From: Saccharicrinis sp.
GTDB lineage: Bacteria > Bacteroidota > Bacteroidia > Bacteroidales > Marinilabiliaceae
Length of the DNA: 37,962 bases
Direction: 5' to 3'
Assembly: GCA_024635585.1 (NCBI GenBank)
Contig: JAGXIP010000164.1
Location: 1 to 37,962 of the forward strand
The notes beneath the pieces were generated by a model. It was not told where the DNA came from and did no database searches. It saw only the letters and a list, made by a program, of their open reading frames with translations. Within the stretch, counting starts at the first letter, position 1, and each line of letters starts with the position of its first letter. The position numbers and the translations under genes were made by a program. Positions 9,799-25,394 of the stretch are shown piece after piece.

Positions 9799-10404
9799 TT
9801 AAAATACCTCCAGTATCAAGGTAAGCAATATGGGCACCAGTATAGTTAGCACAATGCCGCTAAAAATGGCTATGATACCGTATTCTTTACCGGTAAATTT
9901 AACGATGACGGGCAAGGTCGTGTCCATGGCAGTTGCTCCACCAGATGCTATGCCGGCCAATTTCCCAAAATATTTCACTAACAGAGGCACGGCTAATAAG
10001 GTTAAAATTTCCCTGAAGATATTGGACAGCAGTGCCACTACACCCAACTCTTTTCCACTTATTTCGCTAATAAATATACTCGATAAGGAGTAGTAACCAA
10101 ATCCCGCACCCACTGCCATGGCCTCTTTTACTTTGATGTCGGAGAGCAAGAGTGATATAAGAGCAGTTCCAAGCAAGCTGCCCACAATAACAGTTAGGGG
10201 TACCAAAACTATTTTAAAATTCATTTTGCGCAACACGTAAAAGGCGGCCTTATCACTACCTATGCTTATGCCCACCAAAAACATGAGGACAAACAAAGCA
10301 TAAGTGGTAAGGTTATCGTTTAGCAGCCATTGGGGAAATACATTATAGATACCTCCGATAAGACCCACTGCAAAAAATGATAATATAATCAGGCTTCCTT
10401 TCAT
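9799..10404 (-). CDS. LysO-type lysine exporter, C-terminal subunit (DUF340)
   Basis: A 201-residue membrane protein with about six hydrophobic segments, corresponding to the C-terminal two thirds of E. coli LysO (YbjE), a lysine exporter of about 299 residues. Characteristic stretches are FVLMFLVGISIGSDK, GAGFGYYSLSSIFISE and SGGATAMDTTLPVIVKFTGKEYG. The start overlaps the stop of the preceding gene by four bases (ATGA at 10401-10404), so the two are translationally coupled. Together they total 298 residues, equal to one full LysO. It would act in the inner membrane. Lysine as substrate is inferred from the family. Confidence 0.85.
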   Translation of the reverse strand: MKGSLIILSFFAVGLIGGIYNVFPQWLLNDNLTTYALFVLMFLVGISIGSDKAAFYVLRKMNFKIVLVPLTVIVGSLLGTALISLLLSDIKVKEAMAVGAGFGYYSLSSIFISEISGKELGVVALLSNIFREILTLLAVPLLVKYFGKLAGIASGGATAMDTTLPVIVKFTGKEYGIIAIFSGIVLTILVPILLTLILEVF

Positions 10405-10694
10405 TGCTCTTCGGGTTTGTCCGATTTAAAATAGAGCTGATACACCACTTTGGCCAGTAGCACGCTGCCCAGCACAGCGCCTAATGTCAACCAGAAAGCT
10501 TTGTAACCAATGCGCGAAAAGCTATTAATGATCTCTTCGTTGGTGCCTACGGATATACCTAACAAAAACAATAGCAGATAAACCGCCCAAGTAATTCCTG
10601 AATCTACTTTTTTACGAGCCTGATCCTTTTTTCGGAAGAACCAGCCTAATCCGATTCCTAAGGTGAATAATGCGATAACAATATAGGAGGTCAT
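10401..10694 (-). CDS. LysO-type lysine exporter, N-terminal subunit
   Basis: A 97-residue protein with three predicted hydrophobic segments that corresponds to the N-terminal third of LysO. It ends in a soluble tail (FKSDKPEEQ). Its stop overlaps the start of the C-terminal subunit in an ATGA, which indicates a stable two-gene arrangement rather than a recent frameshift. The repeated motif LFLLGISVGTNEEI resembles FLVGISIGSDKA in the partner, suggesting an internal duplication within the family. The gene has a well-formed promoter (10757-10786) and a dyad in its leader. It lies downstream of dpp11 on the same strand. Confidence 0.8.
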   Translation of the reverse strand: MTSYIVIALFTLGIGLGWFFRKKDQARKKVDSGITWAVYLLLFLLGISVGTNEEIINSFSRIGYKAFWLTLGAVLGSVLLAKVVYQLYFKSDKPEEQ

Positions 10695-10722
10695 AAATTA
10701 AAATTAGACATGCGGTATAATA

Positions 10723-10756
10723 CGAATGGAGTAAGTTTTACAACCAACTCCATTCG
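10723..10756 (-). promoter_or_regulatory. 10-bp perfect dyad at the LysO transcription start
   Basis: CGAATGGAGT and ACTCCATTCG (10723-10732, 10747-10756) are exact complements around 14 bases. They begin directly after the -7 box. It could be a repressor operator covering the transcription start or a hairpin at the 5' end of the leader. The leader of about 60 nt is too short for a lysine riboswitch. Confidence 0.55.
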
Positions 10757-10786
10757 CAAATATATTCAAATGCCGTTTAATTCAAA
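10757..10786 (-). promoter_or_regulatory. Promoter of the LysO operon
   Basis: On the minus strand, TTTG (10786-10783), an 18-bp spacer and TATATTTG (10764-10757) match both halves of the Bacteroidota consensus. The likely start of transcription is near 10752, about 60 nt before the first ATG. Confidence 0.7.
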
Positions 10787-10929
10787 GCAATGCTTGAGAT
10801 AATCTGTGTATTGCAAAATTCATTGGTAAAGTTGGTAGCATCGTTGCGCTTACTGCGAAAGTGTTTAATAATATGCACTTTTTTGGAAAAAAGGTGGTAG
10901 AAGTGTGCGAACCTTAAAATACTACTCTT

Positions 10930-13092
10930 TTACTGTTTCCACTCTTCCAGTAGTTCTTTTGCCCTCAACTGATGTTCCAGCACAAAACGGATGTACCGGA
11001 TATCAACGGCAATCTGTCTGCTCCATTGCGGAAGGTATTTGTAATCTGATACCAAACCATATCCTACTCTGTCGAAGTTTAAGCCAATCAACCTGCCTTT
11101 TTTATCTAAAACGGGGCTTCCCGAGTTGCCTCCCGTGGTGTGGGCGTTGGTAATAAAGCAGGTGTTTAAGGTTTTTTTGCTTCTCGCAACCTCCTTTTGA
11201 CAAATTTGTGTAAATAGATTGGGCAGTGGATAAATATCTACATTTTCATGGTTTTTTTGGATTAAGCTTTCCAATGTTGTCTTATATGTATAAGAGCTGT
11301 CGCCTACATTGAAACCTTTAATTTTACCGTAGGATACCCGTAAGCTCCGATTGGCATCGGGCGATAGTTTTTTATCGGCCTTCATTTCACGCATGGCTCG
11401 AACAAATTTTTGGTGATATTGACCATATTCGCGTCTGATATCCATGCGCTGGCGATATAGTTTTTCAAGATTGATTAAATAAAAACTGATACATAGTTGA
11501 AAAAGTGGGTCGTTTTGGATGGTAACTACATCCACTGCGGTATAGTTATTTAAAAAATTGTCTAACTTTTCTTTGGATGTAAAAACCGATTTGTGGAAGA
11601 TTTCATTCATGTATTTATTAAAATCACCTTGGTAGAATTTACGTGCATGAACGATGGGAGCAGGTTTTAAGCTGTCACCCACATTTTTGTCGTATAATTG
11701 TACACACACTTCCAATAACTCTTTCTCTGTGTCAATATTAAAATTCTTGAAAAATTTGGCTGTCTCCGAGCTCATTCGGTCTAACTCTTTGGTTAACCTA
11801 ATGTCGTTTATCTTTGGACGGGAGCATATGGCATTTATCATCTCGAACTTAGCCACAAAGGAAGTGATGTTGGCTCCACGGATACCTGCATCGTTTATAT
11901 AAACATTTAATTTTTCCAGGGTATCCAACTGGTCACAAAATGATTCTATACGGTTGATAAGATGTCCATATTCTTGTATCCGTTCCTCCGTTGCATTAAC
12001 CCAACGTGTAAATTCTGCCTCTTCCTGCTGCTTTTGTTTTATGATGTCAAAACGCATTAGGCCTGCTGATTCAGCTTTCCAACGTAGCAGTTTATTTGAT
12101 GTATTACTTTTTTCATCCGCATATTTTAACCACAAATCGTCATTCTTACCTATGTTTGTATTGAGGATTTGCATTTTTGCGTCACCTACTTTAATGGAAT
12201 GGTAATTTGTAACCTCAACAATCTGCCGGAGTGCCCGCGATGTTAAAAATTGTTTTGTACTAGCTGGAAACCCCAATAGCATTGCAAAATCACCTTCCTT
12301 ATAGCCTTTAAACGATAATTTAAGTGCGTTTGCAGGTTTGATCGGCGTATTGTGTGTTGCGTATTTTATGGATTGATGGGCGGTGTCCCCATAAACCCGG
12401 AGGATACAAAAATCGGCCGATTGACGTGGCCATTGCCAATTATCCGTTTCGCCCCCAAACTTGCCCAGCGAAAGAGGCGGCATGGCCACGATCCGCACGT
12501 CATTGTATATCTCGTAAACTTCAAGGAAGTATTGGCTGCCACCAAAATAGGATTTAATTTTGGCCTTATAATTCGTGTTTAAGATGGCCTCTTCAACAAT
12601 CTCCTTTCCAAGGATTTGATGTGAATCCTCAGATGTACCTTCTTCCTCTAATTCGACTGCCTCATTAAGCCGGGTCGTTACATCCTCCATTCTTACAAGT
12701 CGAGCCAAGGTAAGCCCGTGGGCTGGTAATTCCTTTTCATACGAATCGGCATAGAACCCGTTCTTGAGGTAATTGTTTTCTGTTGTGCTGTGCTTGTGAA
12801 GATAAGATACTGCACAATGATGATTGGTGAGGACAAGACCTGTGGAGGTGATAAATGCACCTGTTGCCGAAAACGTTGTGGGATCGTTTGACTTTCCCAA
12901 TCCAAGCACCGCATCTTTCAGGCATGTTTTATTGATGTCATATACATCTTGAGCTGAAAGTTTAAAGCCCGCTTTTTTCATGTCTTCGATGTTATATTTC
13001 TTCAGCAATGACGGGATCCACATGCCTTCGTCGGCTTTGGACAGCAAGGAGAAAAAAATAAGGCAAGCAATGAGTATTTTTATTCTGTTCAT
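10930..13092 (-). CDS. dpp11: S46 family dipeptidyl-peptidase, DPP11-type
   Basis: S46 peptidases are periplasmic serine exopeptidases that release dipeptides from the N-terminus of oligopeptides. The 720-residue length, the signal peptide and the mature start ADEGMWIP are typical. The chymotrypsin-like triad is visible as His92 (LTNHHC), Asp217 (GETDNWQWPR) and Ser657 (TGGNSGSP). Eighteen residues after the serine lies Arg675 (LNFDRV). At this position DPP11 has Arg and cleaves after Asp/Glu, while DPP7 has Gly and cleaves after hydrophobic residues. The call of acidic specificity rests on that residue. A terminator (13192-13230) separates it from the metalloprotease upstream. The LysO genes follow 235 bp later. 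Confidence 0.9.
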   Translation of the reverse strand: MNRIKILIACLIFFSLLSKADEGMWIPSLLKKYNIEDMKKAGFKLSAQDVYDINKTCLKDAVLGLGKSNDPTTFSATGAFITSTGLVLTNHHCAVSYLHKHSTTENNYLKNGFYADSYEKELPAHGLTLARLVRMEDVTTRLNEAVELEEEGTSEDSHQILGKEIVEEAILNTNYKAKIKSYFGGSQYFLEVYEIYNDVRIVAMPPLSLGKFGGETDNWQWPRQSADFCILRVYGDTAHQSIKYATHNTPIKPANALKLSFKGYKEGDFAMLLGFPASTKQFLTSRALRQIVEVTNYHSIKVGDAKMQILNTNIGKNDDLWLKYADEKSNTSNKLLRWKAESAGLMRFDIIKQKQQEEAEFTRWVNATEERIQEYGHLINRIESFCDQLDTLEKLNVYINDAGIRGANITSFVAKFEMINAICSRPKINDIRLTKELDRMSSETAKFFKNFNIDTEKELLEVCVQLYDKNVGDSLKPAPIVHARKFYQGDFNKYMNEIFHKSVFTSKEKLDNFLNNYTAVDVVTIQNDPLFQLCISFYLINLEKLYRQRMDIRREYGQYHQKFVRAMREMKADKKLSPDANRSLRVSYGKIKGFNVGDSSYTYKTTLESLIQKNHENVDIYPLPNLFTQICQKEVARSKKTLNTCFITNAHTTGGNSGSPVLDKKGRLIGLNFDRVGYGLVSDYKYLPQWSRQIAVDIRYIRFVLEHQLRAKELLEEWKQ

Positions 13093-13191
13093 GGTTATTT
13101 TCTAAGTCATTATGCAGTAAGTATAAGAATCGGTTCGTTTATCGTAGGAAATTCAAAAAAACGTTATCTCATACGTAAAATTAGTAGTGAA

Positions 13192-13230
13192 TAAAAAAAG
13201 CCTCCCGGATAAAATAAAGATCAGGGCTTA
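13192..13230 (-). terminator. Terminator at the end of the SusCD/metalloprotease locus
   Basis: AAGCC (13198-13202) pairs with GGCTT (13225-13229), with further inner CCC/GGG and GAT/ATC pairing. A run of seven T follows on the minus strand. The hairpin overlaps the stop codon of the interrupted metalloprotease (13228-13230). Confidence 0.65.
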
Positions 13231-15591
13231 TCCCTCAATGATGGATTTTAAATAGTTAAAATGCTTTTTTGACGATGGGCTTCCTTTTTTGGCTTTCGTT
13301 GTAACCATGGAACGGAAGGTGTCTAACTCTGTTTTTATATCTGCCATAATAAGGTTGTTAAAGGCGTGTCCTCCATCTGCATTGTTATCTTTCAATAATT
13401 TTTGCAGTTGCTTTATATATTCTGTTTGCAGATTTCTCATCCAATTCGATTCCTGCTTTTTATTGGAAACATTAAAAAGATGTTGGGTTATGTCGCCCAA
13501 ATAATCTCCAACAGTATAGGGTTGCGTCGACATAGTAGCGCAGCGCAATATCCGGACTAAAACGGAGCGGCTCAACAGGCTACTGATCACCTTCCCCTGG
13601 TTTGTCATGATATCCAGGTCGTACGAACCTATGATAGCCGATATTTCAGGATTATTCATCCAATCATACTGATTCAACAACTCTTCAAGCATAAAATTCA
13701 ATGCCTCGCTCTGTTTTACCTTACTCACAGGTACAAACTTATCAGGATGTGTCGCGTTGGTTGATTCAAACGTGTAAACACCTCCCAGACGAGCTTCGGC
13801 ATGTTTAAAATACTGGTTATACTGGTTTAAAACTGCCTCTTGCATTTCTTTTAGATTATCCGGATCATCGCTAGTCCATTCCACCAGGTTATGCATGATA
13901 AGTTTGGTGTTTTTGGCGCCATATTTAGCCGCTTTTATAACATCGTCACCCAGCGATTCTGTTAAAACGGACGGATCAAGACAGCCGTCTCCCATCCCGT
14001 TTTTGGCACCAAAAAGATACATTTTGTCATTACTTTTTTCCGCAATCCATTCGTTTAATGTCTCCAGCTCCTCCTCGGGGCTCTTGGCAGAATAAATAGG
14101 TTGATATGCCCATTGAATAGAGAAATAATCGTATGGTCCTAAAATAGGAGGGGTCAAACCTACCCCTTTATCTTCAGGTTGAGCAATATAGTTGTTTCGG
14201 GCATAATCCATGATTGAAGCTGCTGTGCCGTACGTATTTGTAAAACCTGGCGATCGCAACGAGTCAACGGGGAATGCGTAGGATGCTTTGTAATTATGTT
14301 TCAGCCCCAACGTATGTCCTATTTCGTGCGATGCCGCATATCGGACTAAATCGCCCATCAATTTTTCTTCAATCTCATTTTCGGAGCCGCGTATTTTAGG
14401 GTCGTTGGCTGCTGTTTGGGCAAATCGCCATTGGTACAATTTTTTGAAAACATTGTGGTAAAACAACACATCACCCTGCAATATTTCACCTCAACGTGGA
14501 TCAACCCAATGGTTGCCCATGGCATTTGCTTTTTCGTTGGTCACATATCTAAAACAAGAATTCGTAAAATCGTTTTCAAAAAAGAGACTATCGTTTATAG
14601 GATAATCTTTTGCTATAATGGCATTCTTAAACCCGATAGCTTCAAATGCTTTTTGCCAGTCTTCGATTCCTAATTTGATATAAGGCTTCCATTTTTCCGG
14701 AATAGAATTATCCATGTAAAAAACAATCGGTTTCTTAGGCTCAACCAATTCGCCATTCTTATGCCTTTCAATATCTTCATTTTTAGCTTCTACTCTCCAT
14801 CTCTTTGCATACGCATAGGACTTCACATCCATATATTCTGATGACAGTTCTTTCTTTGGTTCATCGTAATACCCGATTTGGGAACTGGACAAACGGGGCC
14901 GCATGGGAATTTTAGGAAGCAGAACAATGGATCGGTGCAGCGAACACATAAAGGAATTGCGCTTTCCGACGAAGCCCATTTGTGTAACTATCTCTACATT
15001 CTCGGGGTAAGCCCTAGCACTGATTGTTTTGGTTGCTTCGGGTATTGATTTACCAAGGCTGGCCCCTCCAAAAGGGGAGATTTGTGCAATTTGCGAATTG
15101 AAGAAGTTGCTAACATTGATAATGAATGCTTTTGTTTCCGGGTTTTCGGCTTCAATTTTGAAGGCTTGCATCACCGTTTGCATGTTGTTCCGTTTAAAAG
15201 AAATGCTGATAGGGTCATTTTTGTCAACTTTTATTTCCGGTTCCACCAAATGTAAAAACACATTTTTATCGTCGTGGCTAAACCTCACCATCATGGGATT
15301 ATGCATCATTTGACCTGCCACGGCATTTTTACTCGAGCTAACTTCTTCCACCCTGCTGCCGATCAACAAATCTCTACCCATGATGTCATCGGGGATTTCG
15401 AGCCGCAAATCGCCATCCTGCACGTAAACACCTATGAAACCGTGGCTGCTGATGTCGGCCTTTTTAATGAGACTCTGATACTTTTTACTATCCGCCAGAG
15501 CGTTTGACTGGCCCTGAGACAAGAGACTTATGGCTATAAAACCAACAGTAAACAATAATGATAATTTGAATCGTAACATTGTATATTTCAA
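13228..15591 (-). pseudogene. Zinc metalloprotease (DUF5118/DUF5117 metzincin type) interrupted by in-frame TGA
   Basis: The two open parts (15591-14491 and 14481-13228) lie in the same frame and are split only by a TGA at 14493-14491. Read through, the product has 787 residues, a normal size for this secreted Bacteroidota family. It has a signal peptide (LFTVGFIAISLLSQGQ), a DUF5118-like N-terminus (GFIGVYVQDGDLRLEIPDD), a DUF5117-like middle and a catalytic domain with HEIGHTLGLKH (zinc ligands His422, His426, His432 in read-through numbering) and the Met-turn SIMDYARN. The stop falls inside the conserved block WVDPR-stop-GEIL, where relatives have a Thr- or Ser-type residue. The protein before the stop lacks the catalytic site, and the part after it lacks a signal peptide. 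It could be a recent nonsense mutation or a sequencing error. It follows the lipoprotein gene by 19 bp in the SusCD operon. Confidence 0.85.
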
Positions 15592-15610
15592 AATTTACTT
15601 ATTTAAAGTT

Positions 15611-17095
15611 TTATAAATCAACTGCTGCCGGCCCGGCTATGTCAAGGGGAGCCGGTTCCGCATAGACATTACTGTTGTAAATATGGTAATGTACCTCTTG
15701 CTTACCTCCCCAGAGTTCATCGTTAGTGTATTCGATGGTCAGTATTATCTCATACAATCCGTCGGATATTTCGGAATAGGTCCCATCACCTTTGATTCCA
15801 ATGAGGTACGAACTTCTACTTGTTCCGGATATAGTTAAATATTGCGAAGTTACCAACACGGTTCCTTCCGTTGTACTGGTGCCGTCTTTAGGGAAAAATT
15901 CGAGGGCATCATCAATATTGAACCCAGGTGATTTATCCGCATCGGTATATTCATCGTTGAATAAATACTTCATGCCAAAAGCATTGGTTGTCCGTCCGGC
16001 ATTGGGCGAGTCAATCCTGACCTTAAAGGCATGATGGTACACATCGTCGGACGGGTCAGAATTACCTCCATCCGAGTAAAGCACTGCATTTGGGTCATCA
16101 GCATCCACAACCATTGGAAAGGTAAATTGGGTGAACGAGCGCCAGTCACTGATTCCATCGGCATCATAATCGATCCACATTTCGCCATAGGTACGATAAT
16201 AAGGGTCGTTTAGGTTGTAAAAGTGGGCAGCGGGATTTGCCGCCTTATCTCTTTCTACCTTAAGCGGCTTAACAATCTGTAAATTCTTATTCCCAATCGC
16301 TAAATAAGCCAAATCATCACGCAATGTCAATATGCTCTCGTAATACCTGTCGTCGATGTTAATGTCCTCATCCAAGGTACACGTGTATGTAATTTGCGTA
16401 TCGCCCTTTTTTATCGGATTTCTGGTTAAAGTGTAATCAAAGCCATCATTAGCCACAAACAATTCTTCCGATTCCAGCTCATCCATAAAAAAGCCTTTTG
16501 GGAAATCCACGCTAAATTCAAATGCTTCCCCTTTTCTTCCTTCCACTACTTTACGGTTAGATGGAAAAGTATACGTAGTTTCCAAATGGCCAAAACTAAC
16601 AGTTAACTTCTTATTTTTTTGATGAGAATTCAAACTCCCAATGCTAATACTAGGATCACTCACCTTGGTTAGTTCAAATTCTAACTGATTTACTTCCGAA
16701 GTATCCCAGCGTTCGTTTATTTCAATAAATATGGTATCAATTAACTTATCCTTGCTAAACCTCAGCTGATCTAACGGCGATTGCGTATATCCGCTATAAG
16801 TTCCTGTTTTAACTGTAGAATACTCAACGGTAACTTCTTCATTAATTTCTGAAGCCGTTAACGCAACCGGTATTTTTATGGGCTTAATTAGCTTATGGGT
16901 ATAATTCTCGACTGATGGGTTATTATTTTTACTTGCTCCTCCTTCCAAAGGAATGCTATCGCTGTCCAGCACAAGAAAAAACCTAAGATACGACGGGCCG
17001 CTATAATAGGTTTCGCCAATAAAATCGTCTGGCGAACAAGCCTGAACAATGAGGACACAAACAATACCCAATATTATATTTCTAATAGCCTTCAT
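15611..17095 (-). CDS. SusCD-associated surface lipoprotein (DUF4843-like N-terminus)
   Basis: A 494-residue protein with a lipoprotein signal peptide ending LIVQAC (Cys20, counted from the ATG at 17095). That ATG is chosen over an upstream TTG at 17104 because it gives a standard signal peptide. The N-terminal region SYLRFFLVLDSDSIPLEG with following beta-rich sequence resembles the DUF4843/DUF4929-type lipoproteins encoded with SusCD. The later acidic stretch WIDYDADGISDWRSF looks like a calcium-binding loop. It overlaps the susD end by 14 bp and is followed by the metalloprotease, so it is part of that operon. A role in surface binding of the same nutrient is inferred. The exact family is uncertain. 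Confidence 0.75.
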   Translation of the reverse strand: MKAIRNIILGIVCVLIVQACSPDDFIGETYYSGPSYLRFFLVLDSDSIPLEGGASKNNNPSVENYTHKLIKPIKIPVALTASEINEEVTVEYSTVKTGTYSGYTQSPLDQLRFSKDKLIDTIFIEINERWDTSEVNQLEFELTKVSDPSISIGSLNSHQKNKKLTVSFGHLETTYTFPSNRKVVEGRKGEAFEFSVDFPKGFFMDELESEELFVANDGFDYTLTRNPIKKGDTQITYTCTLDEDINIDDRYYESILTLRDDLAYLAIGNKNLQIVKPLKVERDKAANPAAHFYNLNDPYYRTYGEMWIDYDADGISDWRSFTQFTFPMVVDADDPNAVLYSDGGNSDPSDDVYHHAFKVRIDSPNAGRTTNAFGMKYLFNDEYTDADKSPGFNIDDALEFFPKDGTSTTEGTVLVTSQYLTISGTSRSSYLIGIKGDGTYSEISDGLYEIILTIEYTNDELWGGKQEVHYHIYNSNVYAEPAPLDIAGPAAVDL

Positions 17096-18551
17096 TTTGT
17101 TCAAGATTTGAATTTAACTTAATGTTTCGTTCGGGTATTGGTAGCACAAAGAAATTAGACGGATAGGATAGGTTACAAACTGTAGACACGCATCCTTCGT
17201 TTCGTTCCACGTTTTTATTAAAACGGGCTATGTCGTATAGCAGATGACCTTCGAAGCACAATTCTTTGCGACGTTCAATGAATATCGCTTCCAACAAATC
17301 ATCCGTTTCAAGGGTTAAAGTAGCATTGGCTCTTTCCTGAATTACATTCAAGTCGTTGAGTGCTTGTTCACTTTGGTTAAGCCGGGCGGCAGCTTCGGCC
17401 CGAATCAAATATATTTCGCTCATCCTGATTACAGGATATCCCGGGTTATCCTGAAATTTTCGGGTAAAATAATAAGGTAGCTCTTCTTTATCCTCACCCA
17501 CCAACGTTTCTAACGGTGCTTCTATAAACATGTTTTTGCCTCTTACGTCCGATGGCTCAAACAAGTTCAGCAAATCTCCCGAAGCCACATAGCTTTCATA
17601 ATCCATTGCGGAACGATAACCAAAATCACCAGAAACTGAACTGGTTGTCGACAACTCCCCGTCTCTATCATAGTGTATGCTTAATTCAAATACAATTTCG
17701 CTAACGGCAACATTGGGCTCTTTCCACTGATCCACATAATCGCCTTGTGGCATAAGATCAATGCCTGATTCAGCGATCACATCGTTAGCCAAATCATAAG
17801 CCCTTTGCCAATTATTGGCATAAAGAACTGCCCTGGCCATTAATGCTTTAGTACTGGTAGCAGTTAACAACGAATAGTTAGTGCCATCCAGCGTATTGGT
17901 TTCTGTAAAAAGTTGAAGCGCTGTTTCAAAATCCTGCATCACCAATTCATAACAACGTTTAACCGATTCCCTCGCCGGAAAATCAACGCCTATTTTCTGT
18001 GTCTTGGTGTTATAAACAATTCCTTTGTGCGATGCGTCTGCTGTGGAAGTATAATTTTGAGCATAATTACGCAGCAGCAGAAAATGAGAAAAGGCACGCA
18101 TACTATAACATTCTGCTTTTATTTGTTGCTTCTGACCGTCGCTTGCATCCTCAACCGCATCCACGTTCTCAATTAATAAATTGCAGCCATTTATAATCTT
18201 ATAACAATCGGCATAAGATGACTTAAACTCACTCTCATCTTTGTCGTCGGAAAAATTGTAACTATTTTCTATTCTCTTATAAATTGATGTAACCAAGCCT
18301 TTACTATTGTTCGATAAGTTTGGTGAAAAAGAAATATTACCGCCACAAGCATCGGCATAAACTGCATCCACCTCGTTCATCATATGTTGCGACAGCATGG
18401 TATAGTTGCCACTCATAGCCTCTCTGATACCTTTGTACGAGCCCAGTTGCTCACTGATAGAAATTTGTGTACCGGGTTCCTGCTCAAGAAATTCATCACA
18501 ACTCCAAACAATAAAGAGTATTAATAGGCTATATGCTAGTTTCTTTCTCAT
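17082..18551 (-). CDS. SusD/RagB-family nutrient-binding outer-membrane lipoprotein
   Basis: SusD-like proteins sit as a lid on the SusC pore and capture glycans or peptides at the cell surface. The 489 residues begin with a lipoprotein signal, with Cys18 in IVWSCDEFLEQEPG. That stretch is the typical SusD mature N-terminus (C-x2-FLE-x-P). The helical TPR-like body (AECYSMRAFSHFLLLRNYAQ) and the C-terminal segment VIRMSEIYLIRAEAAARLN followed by IFIERRKELCFEGHLLYDIAR are classic for the family. It starts one base after the susC stop, so the two are cotranscribed and probably form a complex. Confidence 0.95.
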   Translation of the reverse strand: MRKKLAYSLLILFIVWSCDEFLEQEPGTQISISEQLGSYKGIREAMSGNYTMLSQHMMNEVDAVYADACGGNISFSPNLSNNSKGLVTSIYKRIENSYNFSDDKDESEFKSSYADCYKIINGCNLLIENVDAVEDASDGQKQQIKAECYSMRAFSHFLLLRNYAQNYTSTADASHKGIVYNTKTQKIGVDFPARESVKRCYELVMQDFETALQLFTETNTLDGTNYSLLTATSTKALMARAVLYANNWQRAYDLANDVIAESGIDLMPQGDYVDQWKEPNVAVSEIVFELSIHYDRDGELSTTSSVSGDFGYRSAMDYESYVASGDLLNLFEPSDVRGKNMFIEAPLETLVGEDKEELPYYFTRKFQDNPGYPVIRMSEIYLIRAEAAARLNQSEQALNDLNVIQERANATLTLETDDLLEAIFIERRKELCFEGHLLYDIARFNKNVERNEGCVSTVCNLSYPSNFFVLPIPERNIKLNSNLEQNEGY

Positions 18552-18552
18552 C

Positions 18553-21500
18553 TTAAAAATTCATTTTAAGTCCTAACGTAAATGTTCTCGATTCGGGATA
18601 GGTATTCATAAATTCTCGAATCCCATTTTTCCCTCTTGGGCTTTTTTGTTTATAAAAATAAGCTACGTTCGATACATCGGCCATAATACTTAGGTTCTTA
18701 ACAAAAATATTAGCCCGGTGAAAAGGTACTTTATAGGATAAACTAATATTGCTAATCTTTAGATGTGAGCTGTCGTAAATGTACTTACTCAAATTAGTAA
18801 CCAAAGGGTTGTATTTTGATACGGCCGGTTGTAGCGCCAAATCGCCCGGGCCGCTCCAGTAATCGTACGCATTTATACTAAGGTTGCGACTGCCAATGAA
18901 ATTATAATTAGATATCAGATTGTAATCCACCAATTTATCCCCACCATATTTAAACGAGCCCCTAACACTTAACGAAAGGTTTTTAAAACTGAGGGATGAA
19001 TTAAAACCACCGTAAAAATCAGCTTGTGCATTGCCAATAGGTTGCCAGTCGGTGGCATTAAACAAATCATTTATCAATTCAGAGTCATAAATCTGTCCGT
19101 TTACCTCTACCAGATCACGACCGGTGGCCGGATCGATTCCAGCCCAGTTTAATCCCCAAATAGTTGAAGTACTGTAACCTTCTTTTATGGCTATGGCTTT
19201 GGATGCTGCCGAGTAATCATCACCAAATCCCCGTACCGAAGTAATTTTACTTTTCAGGGTAGCGATATTAAGATTTACATCCCATTTAAAATCAGTGCTT
19301 TTAATAATCTGTGTTCGTAAAGAAGCCTCCCAACCTTTATTGTACATATTGGAGCCATTAATTTGAATGCCCGCATAACCCGTTTCGTGAGGAATGTCGC
19401 GGCTGGATATCATATCTTCGATATTATCGTAGAAGTATTCAACCGTCAAATTTAATCGGGAGAGCATACTAATATCTATGCCAAAGTTGAATTTTTTATT
19501 GGTTTCCCAAGTTAATCGGGGATTTGGAGCATCGCTGGGAGTGGCATAGGCCACTTTATTATACCCTCCAAATTCCTTATACGAATAGAGCCCTTTAGAT
19601 CTATAGGAGCCGATACGGGAGTTGCCGGTTGTACCATAGCTTATTCTCAACCTAAAAAAATCAAGCCACAACTGTTGTTTCAGGAATGATTCTTTGCTGA
19701 CAATCCAGCTTAGGCCGGCACCTCCATTATAAGCTACATTGGTGTCATCCCCAAAAACCGAACTTTCGTCGCGGCGGAAGTTGGCCAGGAAAAAGTATTT
19801 CTTTTTCAAATCATAATTCAGTTGGGAAAATAACGATATCCTCGAATTATAATTAATGTCGGAATTATAGGTTTGCAACTTATACCTATCATCATCCACA
19901 GTTTTGGGATCGTCATCCTGAATAGCATCGCTGACAGGATGGATACGTTCCGGATTAACAAAACCTCTTCCCGAGGCATAGTCAAAATCTACCTTTTCTT
20001 CTGCCAATTCAATGCCGGCCATCACATCAAAGTAATGGTTGTCGTTTATCTGTTTTTTATAACTGGTCTGTGCCTGCCAGTTCCATCGTGTTGAGTTTCT
20101 ATTATTTATCGTTCGTCGTCCCCACATTGGGTAATCTGCGCCATTTAGGATAAATCCGCCATTCAACTGACCGCTTTCGTTAGCACCGGAAAAATAACGG
20201 TCCTGTTCTTTATCTTTGTAGTCGATGCCGAGGAGTGTAGAAATAATCCAATCCTCCGAAATATTATAGGCCAAGTTCAGGCTGGTAATAAAGCCCTTTG
20301 TATCTGATTTATTAAGGTTTTGCTCAATGGCTGCAAAGGGATTCCCCAAACCGGATACACCAATATTGGTATAAGTGCCATCCTGGTTATAAATGGGTAA
20401 ATTAGGTGCAAAGGCATAGCTATAATAAATATTAGGCGCATTCTTTTGCACAATACTGGGGCTAAACGATAGTTGAGCCTTAAGTCGTTGGGTTGTGAAG
20501 CCAAAGTTTGAACTTACGCGGTATTGATCGGAGCTGTTACCTTTTTGCGGCTCCTTAATGTGCAAATAATTTACCCCCACACGAAAGGTAAAGGCTTTGT
20601 GCCCACCACTGACACTCAAAGCATATTTGTTAAAAGCACCCGTTCCGTTTAATTCATCAAACCAACTGGTATTAACTCCATTGTAAGGGGTTGGGTTAGC
20701 ACCCTGACTTGCCAAAAAAGCATTTAGCACTTCGCTGTATTGCTCCCCATTCATGTACTTTATTTGGTTGATGGCTTGAGAAATACCATGTTGCGTGGAG
20801 AAGTCAAATTTCGTTTTCCCAGCTTTCCCCTTTTTTGTAGTGATAAGGATTACACCATTGGCACCGTCGGCACCGTAAATACTCACGGCTGCTGCATCTT
20901 TCAATACATTTATCGATTCAATATCTTCGGGAGCCAATTGTCCCAAGGGATTGTTGAAGTTCTCAGCATTGGTACCACTCCCATCGAAAAAGGAATTGTC
21001 AATGGCCATTTCTTCGCTCATGATTACTCCATCGATAATGATCAGTGGCTGAGTGGAGGTTCCTAATAAGGAATTACTCACAGGAGTCAAGCTGCCTTGC
21101 CCACGAATATTGATTTTAACTGGTGACAAAGGACCCGAACCAGTTTCGATATTAACCCCTGCAATTTGGCCAACAAGCATTTTGTCTACGCTTTCAAAAG
21201 CTTGACCCACCTGAATATCTTTTGATTGAATAGTCTCGATACTACCAACTACCTCTTCCTTTAGTTTTTGCGTCCCATAAGATGAAGTGATTACTACTTG
21301 CTCCAGTTCATTAACGGATTCCTCCATAAATATTTCGAGGTAGGTTCTGTTACCCACGTTCACCGTTTGTGTTTCCATCCCGATAAAGGAGATAACCAAC
21401 TCCAGGTTTCCTGCATGTTCTTCTTTAACGGCAAGTCCAAATTGACCCTCCAAATTGGAGACGGTTCCTAAACCCGTTGCTTTAACCACGATATTAACTC

Positions 21501-21618
21501 CTGGAAGTGGTGAGTTGTCAGCTTTGTCCAAAACCCTACCCGTAATCCTGACTTGTGCGGCAATGGATCCAAGGTTAATGACAAAGGCAAACAAAAGAAC
21601 AGTGAGTTTGAATTGCAT
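18553..21618 (-). CDS. SusC/RagA-family TonB-linked outer-membrane receptor
   Basis: A TonB-dependent transporter that imports oligomers bound by its SusD partner. The 1021 residues carry a signal peptide, then a carboxypeptidase D regulatory-like domain (ITGRVLDKADNSPLPGVNI, about 25-100). The SusC plug follows with VVITSSYGTQKLKEEVVGS, INIRGQGSL and LKDAAAVSIYGADGANGVIL. A 22-strand-type barrel ends in TFTLGLKMNF with a terminal Phe. The STN domain is absent, so signalling through an anti-sigma factor is not expected, and no ECF sigma/anti-sigma pair lies next to it. The substrate is not readable from sequence. The proteases around it suggest peptides, as with P. gingivalis RagAB. Confidence 0.95.
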   Translation of the reverse strand: MQFKLTVLLFAFVINLGSIAAQVRITGRVLDKADNSPLPGVNIVVKATGLGTVSNLEGQFGLAVKEEHAGNLELVISFIGMETQTVNVGNRTYLEIFMEESVNELEQVVITSSYGTQKLKEEVVGSIETIQSKDIQVGQAFESVDKMLVGQIAGVNIETGSGPLSPVKINIRGQGSLTPVSNSLLGTSTQPLIIIDGVIMSEEMAIDNSFFDGSGTNAENFNNPLGQLAPEDIESINVLKDAAAVSIYGADGANGVILITTKKGKAGKTKFDFSTQHGISQAINQIKYMNGEQYSEVLNAFLASQGANPTPYNGVNTSWFDELNGTGAFNKYALSVSGGHKAFTFRVGVNYLHIKEPQKGNSSDQYRVSSNFGFTTQRLKAQLSFSPSIVQKNAPNIYYSYAFAPNLPIYNQDGTYTNIGVSGLGNPFAAIEQNLNKSDTKGFITSLNLAYNISEDWIISTLLGIDYKDKEQDRYFSGANESGQLNGGFILNGADYPMWGRRTINNRNSTRWNWQAQTSYKKQINDNHYFDVMAGIELAEEKVDFDYASGRGFVNPERIHPVSDAIQDDDPKTVDDDRYKLQTYNSDINYNSRISLFSQLNYDLKKKYFFLANFRRDESSVFGDDTNVAYNGGAGLSWIVSKESFLKQQLWLDFFRLRISYGTTGNSRIGSYRSKGLYSYKEFGGYNKVAYATPSDAPNPRLTWETNKKFNFGIDISMLSRLNLTVEYFYDNIEDMISSRDIPHETGYAGIQINGSNMYNKGWEASLRTQIIKSTDFKWDVNLNIATLKSKITSVRGFGDDYSAASKAIAIKEGYSTSTIWGLNWAGIDPATGRDLVEVNGQIYDSELINDLFNATDWQPIGNAQADFYGGFNSSLSFKNLSLSVRGSFKYGGDKLVDYNLISNYNFIGSRNLSINAYDYWSGPGDLALQPAVSKYNPLVTNLSKYIYDSSHLKISNISLSYKVPFHRANIFVKNLSIMADVSNVAYFYKQKSPRGKNGIREFMNTYPESRTFTLGLKMNF

Positions 21619-21644
21619 GGGTCGATTTATTATAAAAATGAAAA

Positions 21645-21676
21645 GAGAACAATCCGTGGAACGACGGATTGTTCCC
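21645..21676 (-). terminator. Terminator between ELW-repeat gene and susC
   Basis: An 11-bp perfect stem (GAACAATCCGT, 21647-21657, with 21664-21674) around a six-base loop is followed on the minus strand by TCTTTTCATTTTT. It lies just after the T9SS gene and only about 28 bp before the susC ATG. SusC expression must therefore depend on read-through or on a promoter overlapping this hairpin. Confidence 0.7.
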
Positions 21677-21689
21677 CATGTTTTAATGA

Positions 21690-23159
21690 TTACTTAATGG
21701 TGATTTTTTCAGTCAAAGTACTTGTACCATCCACAATTTGTAAGATATAAATCCCTACTCTGCTATAGTTTATTTGGTTATTTAAAACCTGACCGTTAGC
21801 AACACATTCACCGGCTAAATTATAAATGCAATAAGTGGCATTGGCCGATTCCAATCCATTGATATTTATTCTGCCCTTTGATGGATTTGGATAAACCTTC
21901 ACAACTGAAACAATAGGTGCATCACCAATGGCAGTTGAGATAGTTGCAGGATCCAACATAAACAATTCGTTACCTGTTGTTTCGGTTCCAGTTGCATCTT
22001 CACCCTCGAAGTAAAGGATGCCATTTAGTTCAACAATTTCATCAATATCGATAATCGTTGAATTCAACTGTTCAATGGTTGTTCCATTTGTTCTGAATAG
22101 GTGACTTTTCTTATCTGCACCGTTATCCTGACCACTATAATATAAATAACCATCATATGCACAGTAATCAGAAGGGTTATGGTCAATATTGTCAACACTT
22201 GCTATATTACTGATATTGGTTGTCGTTCCTGCAGTTGGATTATACACATAAAGCTGATCCCCGTTGATGCCGTCATCTCCCTCTAAAAATATTTTTCCAT
22301 CCCAGGCATATAGGTTGTCAACACCGCCTATGGTCGAAGCTGAGGGGATGGCTATGGTTCCGACTTCGGTACCGTCAGTTTCCCATAGGCCGCCAAGCGC
22401 TTCAAAATATACTTTGGTATCCAGATTGACCATGTTAGAAATACCTGAACTTTCAATTCTGTCGTTAGGGGTTTCGTTAGTTAAATCATCGGCGGCAATG
22501 TTCTTAACCAATGTGTATTCTTGGGTCGAGAAATCGTACTCGTAAAGTTCTGTACCAACCTCACTGCCCAGAATATTATCCTTGTCTTCATTATCGTTTC
22601 GCATATATAAAAGGGCCTTCCCATTGAGAATGGTAAAAACGCCACCCAGAACATTTTCGACAAGTCCGGTAGTTGCATTGGCCACCTTTTGAATTGCGGT
22701 TCCATTGAATTCGTATATGGCATTGCTTTCTGTTACTTTGATAAAGTATAACTTGCCATCATATTCCTTTGGCGAGAAGATTAAGGTTCCCAAGCCAAGA
22801 TCAACTGTTCCGCTTTCGGTACCATCGGTCGAGTAGGCCACATTTCCACTTCCTGGATTAGCGGAGAAAAACAAAGTAGAATTGAAATTAAAGAAAAAGC
22901 TGGGAGAAGAACTGGAAGTACCGGTTCTTATATCTGCAACTAATTCCGTAATAGTGCCGTTTGTTCTCCACAATTCTTTACCGTGGTCAACAACATCGGC
23001 CGCATCATCGGCCGCAAAATAAACATAACCGTCAAAAACAAATAAGTTTGCGGGGAGAGAATTTCCTGTACCAGGGTTAATGTCCTTAACAAGGGCAATT
23101 TGAGCTTGAGCTCCTATGGCAATAAAAGCCAATACGAAAAAGTAGTAAAATTTTGTCAT
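21690..23159 (-). CDS. T9SS-exported ELW-repeat (beta-propeller-like) protein
   Basis: A 489-residue secreted protein. A signal peptide ends near GAQAQ. The body contains repeats with ELWRTNGT, LWETDGTEVGT and YSTDGTESGTVDL patterns (ELWxxDGT type), plus many DGxLYF strands that suggest a beta-propeller. The C-terminus has a type IX secretion type A sorting domain: VVKVYPNPSKGRININGL, then CIYNLAGECVANGQV, then GIYILQIVDG and EKITIK. It is thus expected outside the cell or anchored on the surface. The ligand is unknown. A terminator separates it from susC, so the functional link to the uptake locus is only positional. Confidence 0.85.
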   Translation of the reverse strand: MTKFYYFFVLAFIAIGAQAQIALVKDINPGTGNSLPANLFVFDGYVYFAADDAADVVDHGKELWRTNGTITELVADIRTGTSSSSPSFFFNFNSTLFFSANPGSGNVAYSTDGTESGTVDLGLGTLIFSPKEYDGKLYFIKVTESNAIYEFNGTAIQKVANATTGLVENVLGGVFTILNGKALLYMRNDNEDKDNILGSEVGTELYEYDFSTQEYTLVKNIAADDLTNETPNDRIESSGISNMVNLDTKVYFEALGGLWETDGTEVGTIAIPSASTIGGVDNLYAWDGKIFLEGDDGINGDQLYVYNPTAGTTTNISNIASVDNIDHNPSDYCAYDGYLYYSGQDNGADKKSHLFRTNGTTIEQLNSTIIDIDEIVELNGILYFEGEDATGTETTGNELFMLDPATISTAIGDAPIVSVVKVYPNPSKGRININGLESANATYCIYNLAGECVANGQVLNNQINYSRVGIYILQIVDGTSTLTEKITIK

Positions 23160-23286
23160 AATACATTATTTTAAAGATGATGTGATTACCGATAATAATT
23201 TTGAGGCAAAGATTATTTTCAATACTATTACGGGCGATCACAATTAATTAATAATATGCGTCAATAACATAATAAAGTTTGTAATG

Positions 23287-25188
23287 TTATTTAAAAGTAT
23301 ATGGATTATCCAGCTCTTCGGTAATACCATTTTCGTACTGGATAAATAGTTTCTCCTCTGTAATTTTGTCCACTATCTCTTGGGCTGTTGTTTTCTTCCG
23401 TACGAAAAATACCCGTAGTGTAGGTTCATCGTTAAAGTAAGTGACCATGCCTACTACATACGGGTTGGCTTTTCCTACATGATTGATCATATATTGCATC
23501 ATTTGCTTGTTGCGGGGATAAGTGTCGAATGTCATTTCAAATGAAGCCAGCTCTTCATTTTTATAATCGCTTCGTTTATTAAATGTGCGTTTAAATGGCA
23601 TAAACAAGCCTTTGCGAAGATCTATACCCGTGGTATATGATTTTAGTCGCTCTATAGCGGCCACGTCAAATTCAAGTTCCTGCTCAAACTCCATCCCTCC
23701 GCTTACCAGCTTTATACTTTCCGTCTCAATACTGGCTTTTAGTTTCTCTAAATCCATACCATAATCGCAATATATCTTTACACTTACAGGCTCCCCAAAT
23801 GATGTTTCAAAAGCGTATATATCATTCCGTTTACGCATAATCTGATCCAAATAGAAAATATCCATCTGATCGAACAGATTATATACTTTTACCTCTATGA
23901 TAGCCACTTTAGAACTATCTGCCGCATCCTTTATAAATACCCGAGTAGGTGTAAACAAGGATTTTTTTACTTCCTCAGATGAAATGGTCAAACTATCGTA
24001 CCAAATTTTTACCGAATTTGTATTTACATAGGTGGCCGCACCAAGCACCCCTGGGACAGCCTTCATTTGATTAACAAAGGAGATACTGCTTCCATAGCAC
24101 TTAACATTTTTAAGGCCTTCATACTCAAACAAACTAGCGTTTTCAACAGCCGCCTCATCGCCCCATTTCATATTTACAGTAGGTATTTCAAGTTTATTTC
24201 CCAGATAAATACCTCCCAATACCAACACACATAAAGCCGCAATAGGCATCCAGCGAAAATTGTTCTTATTGTTTATCAAAAGGGTATCTGAAACAGGACA
24301 AGCACCCAAGCAATCGCCGCACAAATTACAGTCGGCGTGGTTAACCACTTCCAGCGAAGCCACATCGATACCTTGAGGGCATTCCTTGGAACACAAACCA
24401 CAATCGATACAGGAATTCGTATTTCGTGTGATTTTTAGCATTTGAATGCTTTTTGATTTTTCGGGCAGTAGCACCTCGAAGAAATAACCCGCAACAAACA
24501 ATGTGATTAATAGATATATCCAGCTAACTTCGATATCAAGCGCATATATTATCGCATAACCGATAACCAGTGTAAGTACAATATATATGTGTTTGAACAG
24601 GTTTGAAAAAGCTCCCAATGGGCATACATAGCGACACCAAAACATAGGAACAATAGTGGAGCCAATAGCAAGAATCAAAATAGCGCTTACGGCCATCCAC
24701 GGAATCACGTCTTCGCCAAACCTACTTGCTGCAGCATAGAAGGGATCGTAGGTTTTGCAAAACAGCTCGTTGGATGCCAATGTAAAGTAAAACGTGATGC
24801 CCAGCAAAACATACTTCAAGACACGTAATAGCTTATCCGTCGTTGGGGGAATAGTAGTTTGTATCTTGATTTTACGCCCTAGCTTCCCAAACCATTCCGA
24901 TGTTGTACCCAACGGACATAGATAACTGCAAAACAGCTTGCTAAAGAGCAACACGCCTATTAATAGGACAACCCCAAGTACCAATTGCATTCCTGCCATG
25001 GAACAGGCCAGTGCTCCATTGTCTAAAAATGTAAATACAGATTGTATTCCACCCAAAGGGCAATAAGCTTCGAAATCAACAAATAACTGAGGGTTAAAAA
25101 GCACCCTGATAAACCAATATACGATAACTGCTAAAAGCGCTAATTGAATAATGGTACGAACACCATTCCTTTTTATAAACCTTGACAT
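23287..25188 (-). CDS. Membrane 4Fe-4S protein (NapH/NosR-like) with C-terminal HMA-like repeats
   Basis: The 633 residues are counted from the ATG at 25188. An upstream TTG at 25230 is rejected because it lies upstream of the transcription start implied by the -7 box. The N-terminal half has several membrane segments and two FCSYLCPLG/WCRYVCPLG motifs (Cys87/91, Cys185/189) as in NapH, NosR and CcoG. A two-cluster ferredoxin domain follows (Cys260, 263, 266, 270 and Cys287, 290, 293, 297). The C-terminal 300 residues seem to hold three heavy-metal-associated-like beta-alpha folds. The first starts NVKCYGSS and keeps only one cysteine (Cys364) of the usual CxxC. An inner-membrane electron-transfer role is inferred. 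The partner is unknown and no nitrous oxide or nitrate reductase genes are nearby. Confidence 0.8.
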   Translation of the reverse strand: MSRFIKRNGVRTIIQLALLAVIVYWFIRVLFNPQLFVDFEAYCPLGGIQSVFTFLDNGALACSMAGMQLVLGVVLLIGVLLFSKLFCSYLCPLGTTSEWFGKLGRKIKIQTTIPPTTDKLLRVLKYVLLGITFYFTLASNELFCKTYDPFYAAASRFGEDVIPWMAVSAILILAIGSTIVPMFWCRYVCPLGAFSNLFKHIYIVLTLVIGYAIIYALDIEVSWIYLLITLFVAGYFFEVLLPEKSKSIQMLKITRNTNSCIDCGLCSKECPQGIDVASLEVVNHADCNLCGDCLGACPVSDTLLINNKNNFRWMPIAALCVLVLGGIYLGNKLEIPTVNMKWGDEAAVENASLFEYEGLKNVKCYGSSISFVNQMKAVPGVLGAATYVNTNSVKIWYDSLTISSEEVKKSLFTPTRVFIKDAADSSKVAIIEVKVYNLFDQMDIFYLDQIMRKRNDIYAFETSFGEPVSVKIYCDYGMDLEKLKASIETESIKLVSGGMEFEQELEFDVAAIERLKSYTTGIDLRKGLFMPFKRTFNKRSDYKNEELASFEMTFDTYPRNKQMMQYMINHVGKANPYVVGMVTYFNDEPTLRVFFVRKKTTAQEIVDKITEEKLFIQYENGITEELDNPYTFK

Positions 25189-25227
25189 CAATTCTATATT
25201 TGTTAATTGATTTAGTAATGAACAATC

Positions 25228-25235
25228 CAAAAGTA
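25228..25235 (-). promoter_or_regulatory. Putative -7 element for the Fe-S membrane protein
   Basis: The minus strand reads TACTTTTG, matching TAnnTTTG about 40 bp before the ATG at 25188. A TTTG lies upstream but with only 14 bp spacing, so the -33 element is not convincing. Confidence 0.4.
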
Positions 25236-25394
25236 TAAACCACTATTAACAAATCGGTACCACAACAATTTTTGACACCTAAAAAACAGGTGCCATATTT
25301 TTTTGGTACGCGCTACCGGTTGTATTACAGGACAATAGAAATTAACGAGACGATTTGGTATAAGCTATCGAAATTAGGAGTGAAAGGGGGCTGA

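Follow-up and report, generated by a model that had tools for sequence, protein, structure and literature searches.

A conserved SusCD transport unit in Saccharicrinis sp. that joins a membrane ferredoxin to a metzincin-S46 peptidase cassette, with a possible role in metal release

We analysed a 37,962-nucleotide stretch of DNA from Saccharicrinis sp. (contig JAGXIP010000164.1 of assembly GCA_024635585.1, 4.85 Mb in 310 contigs), referred to here as the window, which carries a SusCD-type transport locus on its minus strand. This locus belongs to a recurring gene set composed of a regulator, a membrane iron-sulfur protein, often a secreted repeat protein, SusC, SusD, a lipoprotein and a metzincin protease, and in the window as well as in three other genomes a cassette formed by the protease and an S46 peptidase is built into that SusCD set. 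The company that these genes keep points, tentatively, to redox-coupled release of metal from imported peptide or protein as the function of the locus. The original prediction had described a peptide-use locus at 9799-21618 that ran from SusC through a metalloprotease and a DPP11-type peptidase to a two-gene LysO lysine exporter; taken as a whole, its observation was mostly right and its outline was misdrawn.

Along the minus strand the series reads araC, a membrane ferredoxin gene, a gene for an ELWxxDGT-repeat protein, susC, susD, a lipoprotein gene, a DUF4953 protease gene, an S46 peptidase gene and lysO as two open reading frames (ORFs), with the following features.

25395-26543, minus strand: AraC-type regulator matching Pfam HTH_18 and HTH_AraC, its N-terminal half hydrophobic by eye.
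23287-25230, minus strand: membrane ferredoxin, designated P0008, matching Pfam Fer4_5 and Fer4; the ATG at 25188 is the likely start.
21690-23159, minus strand: secreted ELWxxDGT-repeat protein (TIGR04534) with a type IX secretion system (T9SS) sorting tail (TIGR04183).
21644-21677, minus strand: strong hairpin with a T-rich tail between the ELWxxDGT gene and susC, from a terminator scan and folding against shuffles.
18553-21618, minus strand: SusC-type TonB-dependent transporter (TIGR04056, 629 bits against a cut-off of 368).
17082-18551, minus strand: SusD-type lipoprotein lid (Pfam SusD_RagB and SusD-like_3).
15611-17104, minus strand: lipoprotein, designated P0004, with a lipobox by eye; the ATG at 17095 is the likely start.
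14491-15591, minus strand: metalloprotease piece 1, with a signal peptide (by eye), DUF5118 and DUF5117, terminating at an in-frame TGA.
13228-14481, minus strand: metalloprotease piece 2 in the same frame, with the DUF4953 metzincin domain and the motif HEIGHTLGLKH, and by eye lacking a signal peptide of its own.
10930-13092, minus strand: S46 dipeptidyl peptidase (PF10459, 566 bits) with a DPP11-type S1 arginine.
10721-10758, minus strand: strong hairpin in the interval between the S46 gene and lysO, from folding against shuffles; it lies at the edge of the unit and is not part of it.
9799-10694, minus strand: LysO (PF03956), encoded by ORFs at 10401-10694 and 9799-10404; a neighbour outside the unit.

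The conserved unit spans 10930-26543, from the S46 gene to araC. By tblastn and profile searches, araC, a ferredoxin-type gene, susC, susD, a lipoprotein slot and the protease were found together in nine loci besides the window, namely in genomes G049, G051, G047, G033, G291, G165, G348 and G263 and in locus L148 of an uncultured Draconibacterium (G-numbers denote compared genomes and L-numbers fetched loci). Many loci stop at contig ends, where the absence of a neighbour is sometimes unseen, and neighbouring genes were scanned with Pfam in selected loci. The set varies in its details: the ferredoxin takes a reduced form in G033, G348 and G263; the lipoprotein slot holds a relative of P0004 in G049, G051, G291, G165 and L148 and another sequence type in G047, G033 (as two ORFs), G348 and G263; and araC lies at the opposite end of the locus in G291, G165 and L148. 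An araC homologue adjoins the locus in L005, L006, L007, L008, L045, L046, L122, L123, L145 and L148. The ELWxxDGT gene is present among the nine loci in G049, G051, G165 and L148, and it is also kept in L145 and in many of the peroxidase-type loci described below; a literature search for ELWxxDGT found no paper. Because the unit recurs as an araC-to-protease set, which reaches upstream to 26543 and excludes LysO, both the left edge (LysO) and the right edge (susC) of the block first drawn are wrong. We consider it very likely that the conserved unit and the protease-S46 cassette both hold.

Domain matches agree with the earlier account of SusC, SusD, a lipoprotein, a metzincin, an S46 peptidase and LysO arranged in series on the minus strand without glycan enzymes. 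SusC scores above its family cut-off and SusD follows directly, as expected of a SusCD pair. Among the 30 window ORFs scanned there was no match to a glycosidase, lyase or sulfatase, so the locus does not qualify as a polysaccharide utilisation locus, which has glycan-active enzymes beside SusCD. Neither the DUF4374 propeller nor the PepSY reductase that would mark a XusABC system was present among the scanned ORFs.

The association of the S46 peptidase with the protease is carried by gene order in other genomes. The 73 protease loci fetched (13 from the family, 58 from the order, and L045 and L046, some cut by contig ends) include five in which an S46 gene adjoins the protease gene (L008, L122, L123, L135) or is fused to it (L134). 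The order araC, reduced ferredoxin, susC, susD, lipoprotein slot, protease, S46 recurs in G033 (L008), G348 (L122) and G263 (L123), which come from two families, one of them that of the window. In G180 (L134:1736-5416), a metzincin of the DUF5117/DUF4953 type is joined to an S46 peptidase in a single frame of 1226 amino acids with a signal peptide recognised by eye. The earlier claim that SusCD, the metalloprotease and the DPP11-type S46 peptidase belong together is thus upheld by a shared order and a natural fusion; the evidence for a real peptidase link exceeds what the window by itself could have shown.

Phylogenetic analysis is consistent with a cassette. In an S46 tree of 32 rows the window and the five protease-linked S46 peptidases fall on one side of a branch (support 100/100), in a tree of 28 hand-picked protease rows the window and the same five linked proteases group together (98/96), and in a quick tree widened to 72 protease rows the branch of the cassette proteases has a support of 95; protease rows of 500 amino acids or less or of 300 bits or less, and S46 rows of 450 amino acids or less, were left out of the trees. 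The window S46 has a long branch (1.91), and long-branch attraction in the S46 tree is therefore possible, a concern that does not touch the gene order, which is independent of the tree.

The S46 match covers nearly the entire profile (PF10459, 566 bits, positions 1-696 of 698), and the positions that we take to be the catalytic His, Asp and Ser are aligned with those of 5jxf and 4xzy. All six cassette S46 peptidases have FDR at the S1 position, as do the aligned DPP11 structures, and this arginine presumably confers a preference for Asp or Glu at P1. As judged by its S1 arginine, the window S46 is a DPP11-type peptidase; against the Dpp7 equivalog NF053519 it reaches 499 bits, with a cut-off of 1200. 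The genome holds two further S46 matches, one of the G-type and one of the R-type, the latter cut by a contig end.

Genome G017 is informative about the history of the cassette. Its SusC is 74% identical to that of the window (817 residues, 2-817), compared with 59-60% for G049 and G051, and the nearest named species by SusC after G017 are Plebeiobacterium marinum (L138) and P. sediminum (L137) of the Marinilabiliaceae, both of which have an uninterrupted protease gene. The SusD and lipoprotein of G017 are 79% (131 residues) and 62% identical to those of the window, whereas its protease is just 38% identical to the window protease and 70-80% identical to those of G049, G051 and G047; linkage in G017 is presumed, with susC on one short contig and the remainder on another. 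Because G017 shares 62-79% identity in the transporter set and 38% in the protease, the protease and transporter of the window have different histories in this lineage, and the protease-S46 cassette has apparently been exchanged. A rival explanation would make the pair a chance neighbour here, with no functional tie to the SusCD unit. The pair sits in quite different loci in L134 and L135, and same-genus relatives carry another protease type and no S46 gene at this place, as chance would allow; however, the order that includes the pair recurs in L008, L122 and L123, across two families, and we regard a chance association as quite improbable.

The metalloprotease is encoded by one gene (13228-15591) that is divided by an in-frame TGA at 14491-14493 into the two ORFs listed above. 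Taken together, the two pieces show the HExxHxxGxxH motif and the domain order DUF5118-DUF5117-DUF4953 of these metzincins (DUF4953, 314 bits); no single open frame holds both the signal peptide and the catalytic domain. DUF4953 was found in 13 of 71 family genomes, this one included, and the other 12 (13 matches) have it in open frames of 766-860 amino acids with no internal stop. A search for a second DUF4953 in the genome of the window found none. Selenocysteine at the TGA was considered and is unlikely, because Cys is absent from the corresponding position in all 13 aligned relatives. The window copy may be decaying or misassembled. Since the protease gene is interrupted, the proposed complete route from protein to oligopeptide to dipeptide is broken in this assembly. 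Single in-frame stops were also seen in the DUF4953 of G127 (contig C321, TAA) and in the ferredoxin matches of G291 (C21) and G284 (C38, TAA in each). A full-text literature search found no paper naming DUF4953 or DUF5117.

The original prediction had further assigned LysO the role of an exit valve for lysine. Both LysO ORFs match the Lys_export domain (228 and 44 bits), and the reading of LysO as two genes stands, the two-ORF state being usual in the family, in which LysO occurs in 37 of 71 genomes. Among the matches listed, which leave aside one S46 match each in the LysO genomes G015 and G022, LysO lies less than 20 kb from an S46 gene in one of the 37 LysO genomes, that of the window, and a link to the peptidase unit was seen in no relative; G001 and G020 have LysO and S46 on one contig yet hundreds of kilobases apart. 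LysO and DUF4953 are both present in seven family genomes and share a contig only in the window, with the short protease contigs of G012 and G017 making absence of LysO there a weak observation. LysO proteins 92% identical to that of the window keep other gene company (L019, L020), none of 57 labelled order-level protease loci has a LysO label on the same strand up to four genes away, and both S46 and LysO are missing at this place from the locus of three relatives in the same genus (L005, L006, L007), an absence that the original prediction had named as counting against it. On these grounds LysO was rejected as part of the route, and the exit valve is not supported. The N-terminal part of LysO in G020 (contig C1) carries one in-frame TAG.

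Two terminators had been proposed as boundaries between transcription units. The one in front of susC is well supported, with its T-rich hairpin at 21644-21677 folding at -20.3 kcal/mol (z -5.1; 0 of 200 shuffles as good). That at 13192-13230, between protease and S46, folds no better than shuffled sequence (z +1.4; 192 of 200 shuffles are equally stable or more so) and is not supported. The hairpin at about 10721-10758, upstream of lysO, reaches -22.4 kcal/mol over 10715-10775 (z -5.8; 0 of 200 shuffles as good); it has a very stable 12-pair stem without a T-run and could have a regulatory role. An Rfam scan across the window gave no matches, a promoter scan of the window was uninformative (42 found, 43.2 expected), and GC content over 9-26 kb lies between 0.36 and 0.42 without a sharp break.

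The membrane ferredoxin P0008, which the original prediction had left out, contains two CxxxCP motifs, an eight-cysteine ferredoxin domain and C-terminal HMA-like domains. In an alignment from which rows of 550 amino acids or less were dropped, C378, G380 and S381 (C378-x-G-S) are invariant in all 35 rows, window included. The predicted structure (mean model confidence, pLDDT, of 81) ends in several alpha-beta repeats, and Foldseek aligns this C-terminal part with CopZ (6ff2; probability 1.00, TMt 0.76, 60 columns) and MerP (1osd; probability 1.00, TMt 0.69). A PDB sequence search returned weak matches to the ferredoxin domain only, and against the NapH/MauN ferredoxin-type subfamily P0008 scores 44 bits, with a cut-off of 213. 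Relatives at E <= 1e-50 occur in 32 of 295 order genomes, the window's included. Among 33 ferredoxin loci fetched from other genomes, two are the SusCD-protease unit and four (L047, L067, L071, L076) have an S46 gene within three genes; for rough comparison, an S46 gene is found no more than three genes away from 16 of the 581 genes that make up the order protease loci, a set that includes cassette loci. A separate membrane protein with flavin mononucleotide (FMN)-binding and Fer4_5 domains, NosR/RnfG-like, is encoded directly after S46 at L122:13336-14592 (Pfam tested) and L123:5328-6584.

The lipoprotein P0004 has no Pfam match. Part of its model (pLDDT 85.9) resembles tandem Calx-beta domains (Foldseek, NCX CBD12, 3us9; E 5.7e-8, TMq 0.25), and the remainder is unmatched among the Foldseek rows examined; a PDB profile search with the family gave no matches. 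Same-slot lipoproteins of L007, L008 and L122 show weak Calx-beta matches, with DUF4843 in L007 and L008. In P0004, W310, W321 and H358 are unchanged across all 21 sequences compared. A scan with this family yielded 24 loci, four of them L009, L006, L005 and L045 again, and the gene after the lipoprotein encodes a DUF4953 protease in six. In the other 18 (L139-L144, L146, L147, L149-L154, L156-L159; Flavobacteriaceae, Fulvivirga and one Bacteroidia metagenome-assembled genome) a protein carrying two CxxCH motifs comes directly after the lipoprotein or, in L146, one gene later. All four such proteins tested with Pfam (L140, L142, L146, L150) matched CCP_MauG; for that of L140 the nearest NCBIfam families are MauG (237 bits) and MbnH (222 bits), both below cut-off, and upstream in L140, the single locus tested, lie genes for an extracytoplasmic function (ECF) sigma factor and FecR. 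A quick SusC tree was built from 33 rows, with L144, whose susC is split, and SusC rows not above 900 bits excluded; in it the protease rows of the P0004 type form two clades among the peroxidase-type rows, so that back ends have been swapped at least twice behind one transporter type. A literature search found no paper joining cytochrome c peroxidase with SusD, TonB, Flavobacteria and iron.

Parts of the unit occur elsewhere in iron-type company. The protease-S46 pair of L135 is preceded by a TonB receptor, DUF4876 and DUF6850, and the fused protein of L134 by DUF4876, so that the cassette lies in DUF4876/DUF6850/DUF4857 loci in two of five other genomes. By similarity to Pfam-tested proteins, a relative from these families is present in eight of the 33 ferredoxin loci (DUF4876 in six; DUF4857 alone in L074). 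According to the available part of PMC10434189, Bacteroides thetaiotaomicron BT3625-33 (DUF4857, ABC, PepSY-TM, DUF4876, TonB) rises 36.7- to 128-fold on iron depletion, and Porphyromonas gingivalis PG1019-22 (DUF4876, TonB) appears in the iron-stimulon table; the available part of PMC10470040 reports a DUF4876 gene as lower in excess haemin. In G047 (L007:620-4418), the genes after the protease encode a TonB receptor and a DUF4374 protein (29 bits against a cut-off of 25) that resemble XusA and XusB, XusB being a DUF4374 protein in the text available of PMC13142918. CcoG, a membrane iron-sulfur protein, reduces Cu(II) and not Fe(III) in vitro, as stated in the accessible part of PMC7558416. 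MbnP/MbnH offers a parallel only (PMC3621798, in its available part), and in the available text of PMC5787105 no link to a SusCD locus was found.

From these associations we propose that SusCD and the lipoprotein would capture and import a peptide- or protein-bound cargo, which would be cut in the periplasm by the metzincin and the DPP11-type peptidase, each showing a Sec signal by eye. The ferredoxin, placed in the inner membrane by inference, would pass electrons to its own HMA-like domains, and these would reduce or take over the metal freed from the cargo, with iron or haem iron as first choice and copper as second. AraC would switch the gene set, and LysO would take no part. We give redox-coupled metal release somewhat less than an even chance.

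Several observations weigh against that function, for which all of the evidence is gene company. Iron induction was recorded in other species, in loci for which no P0008-like ferredoxin is listed. The HMA-like site of P0008 has a single Cys and not CxxC, and the HMA matches rest on probability and TM-score, Foldseek having returned no E-value of 0.001 or less. Twenty of the 33 ferredoxin loci have no SusCD-protease set, no DUF4876/6850/4857 gene and no S46 gene within three genes; several relatives adjoin housekeeping genes (L061, L062, L064, L066), and in L047, L071 and L076 the ferredoxin stands beside S46 or M16 peptidases with no TonB or SusCD label adjoining. In L122 and L123 the ferredoxin upstream of susC is reduced to its HMA-like part, with the FMN/Fer4_5 protein separate. 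Around the DUF4953 proteases of 57 order loci, SusCD is near in 31 and the ferredoxin in two, and SusCD is separated from the protease by a PKD-like protein in L124 and L126.

Some of these observations would fit plain peptide nutrition without LysO, in which oligopeptides would enter through SusCD and be broken down to dipeptides by the metzincin and the DPP11-type peptidase, and the redox protein would have an accessory task (disulfide reduction, for example) or simply share their regulation. The fusion of the two peptidases in L134, the S1 arginine in all six cassette S46 peptidases, the frequent proximity of SusCD to DUF4953, an S9 peptidase near L006 and the ferredoxin relatives beside S46 (L047, L067, L071, L076) and M16 peptidases (L047, L071) are all consistent with this explanation, and the last of these also tells against metal release. 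The genome, however, has two S46 matches apart from this one; all four protease loci of the P0004 type with the upstream side covered (L137, L138, L148, L155) contain the ferredoxin, as does L046; and the fetched stretches of the peroxidase-type loci show no DUF4953 label. A weak further point is that the solved SusC closest in sequence is 8aa4 (252.8 bits), with RagA behind (182.9 bits). Peptide nutrition is, in our judgement, a serious possibility that falls short of probable. The peptide-use locus of the original prediction survives in its link between SusCD, protease and S46, and is weakened as plain nutrition by the redox genes and the iron-type company.

A different redox-modified cargo, such as a glycoprotein or a pigment-protein, might also be handled, with peroxidase or ferredoxin chemistry acting on its organic part and no gain of metal. 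The alternation of di-haem protein and protease behind one transporter core would suit such a cargo, and glycosidases border L092 (GH2, GH3, GH2) and L008 (GH2 upstream of araC), which speaks against metal release as well; however, no glycan enzyme was found in the 30 window ORFs or in eight flank proteins scanned from L005, L006, L007, L045 and L046, and we think this explanation improbable. The L045 flank includes a CotH protein with a CHB_HEX_C_1 domain, and at L045:16081-17636 three small reversed ORFs, one of them resembling a DNA-binding regulator by eye and perhaps a toxin-antitoxin set, lie between the protease and araC.

Redox-coupled metal release could extend beyond this unit to a class of SusCD systems that gain metal and not carbon, in which a common core (SusC, SusD, the Calx-beta-like lipoprotein and the ELWxxDGT protein) would import a metal bound to peptide or protein, to be released by back ends that can replace one another. 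These back ends would be a metzincin, with or without DPP11, and the HMA-tipped ferredoxin in Marinilabiliaceae and relatives, or a MauG-type di-haem protein in Flavobacteriaceae and Fulvivirga. Both the class and this assignment of back ends we regard as doubtful. If metal release is correct, annotation of SusCD genes as "nutrient uptake" can mask metal scavenging, and the cassette with its natural fusion offers a direct handle on the function of DUF4953 metzincins; if the class exists, SusCD gains a further trade beside glycans and peptides. Should the locus serve peptide feeding only, the cassette would still be a testable route from protein to dipeptide outside oral bacteria. The redox component makes metal release the more interesting reading.

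Among known systems, RagAB of P. gingivalis, which we take to be a SusCD-type peptide importer, shares with the window a SusC/SusD pair without glycan enzymes, and its host presumably has S46 peptidases; it differs in that RagA ranks behind 8aa4 as a match to the window SusC, and RagAB is not known to include a ferredoxin, T9SS repeat protein or DUF4953-S46 cassette. B. thetaiotaomicron BT_2261-2264, presumably a peptide importer composed of SusCD and two lipoproteins, likewise combines SusC and SusD with an extra lipoprotein in one set, whereas BT_2264 (5fq6) matches the window SusC with just 63.5 bits and the set is not known to have a protease or redox gene. The Porphyromonas DPP11 agrees with the window S46 in full-length domain, presumed catalytic residues and aligned S1 arginine, but the window enzyme belongs to a separate deep clade of protease-linked S46 peptidases in a genome with another R-type S46. 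The DUF4876/DUF4857 TonB loci (BT3625-33, PG1019-22) are related to the window through the ferredoxin and cassette-clade relatives that such loci contain elsewhere; in place of TonB-DUF4876-DUF6850 the window has SusCD and another lipoprotein, and PepSY-TM proteins are listed for BT3625-33 in the available part of PMC10434189. XusABC, as described in the accessible text of PMC13142918, similarly combines a TonB transporter, a surface partner and an inner-membrane reductase, and has a counterpart in the DUF4374 neighbour of G047, whereas its reductase is of the PepSY type instead of a ferredoxin and no SusD or protease is named in that text. Finally, CcoG, in the available part of PMC7558416, resembles P0008 in its membrane location, two 4Fe-4S clusters and C-terminal extracytoplasmic domain, a placement that is inferred for P0008, and carries an Ig-like domain where P0008 has an HMA-like fold.

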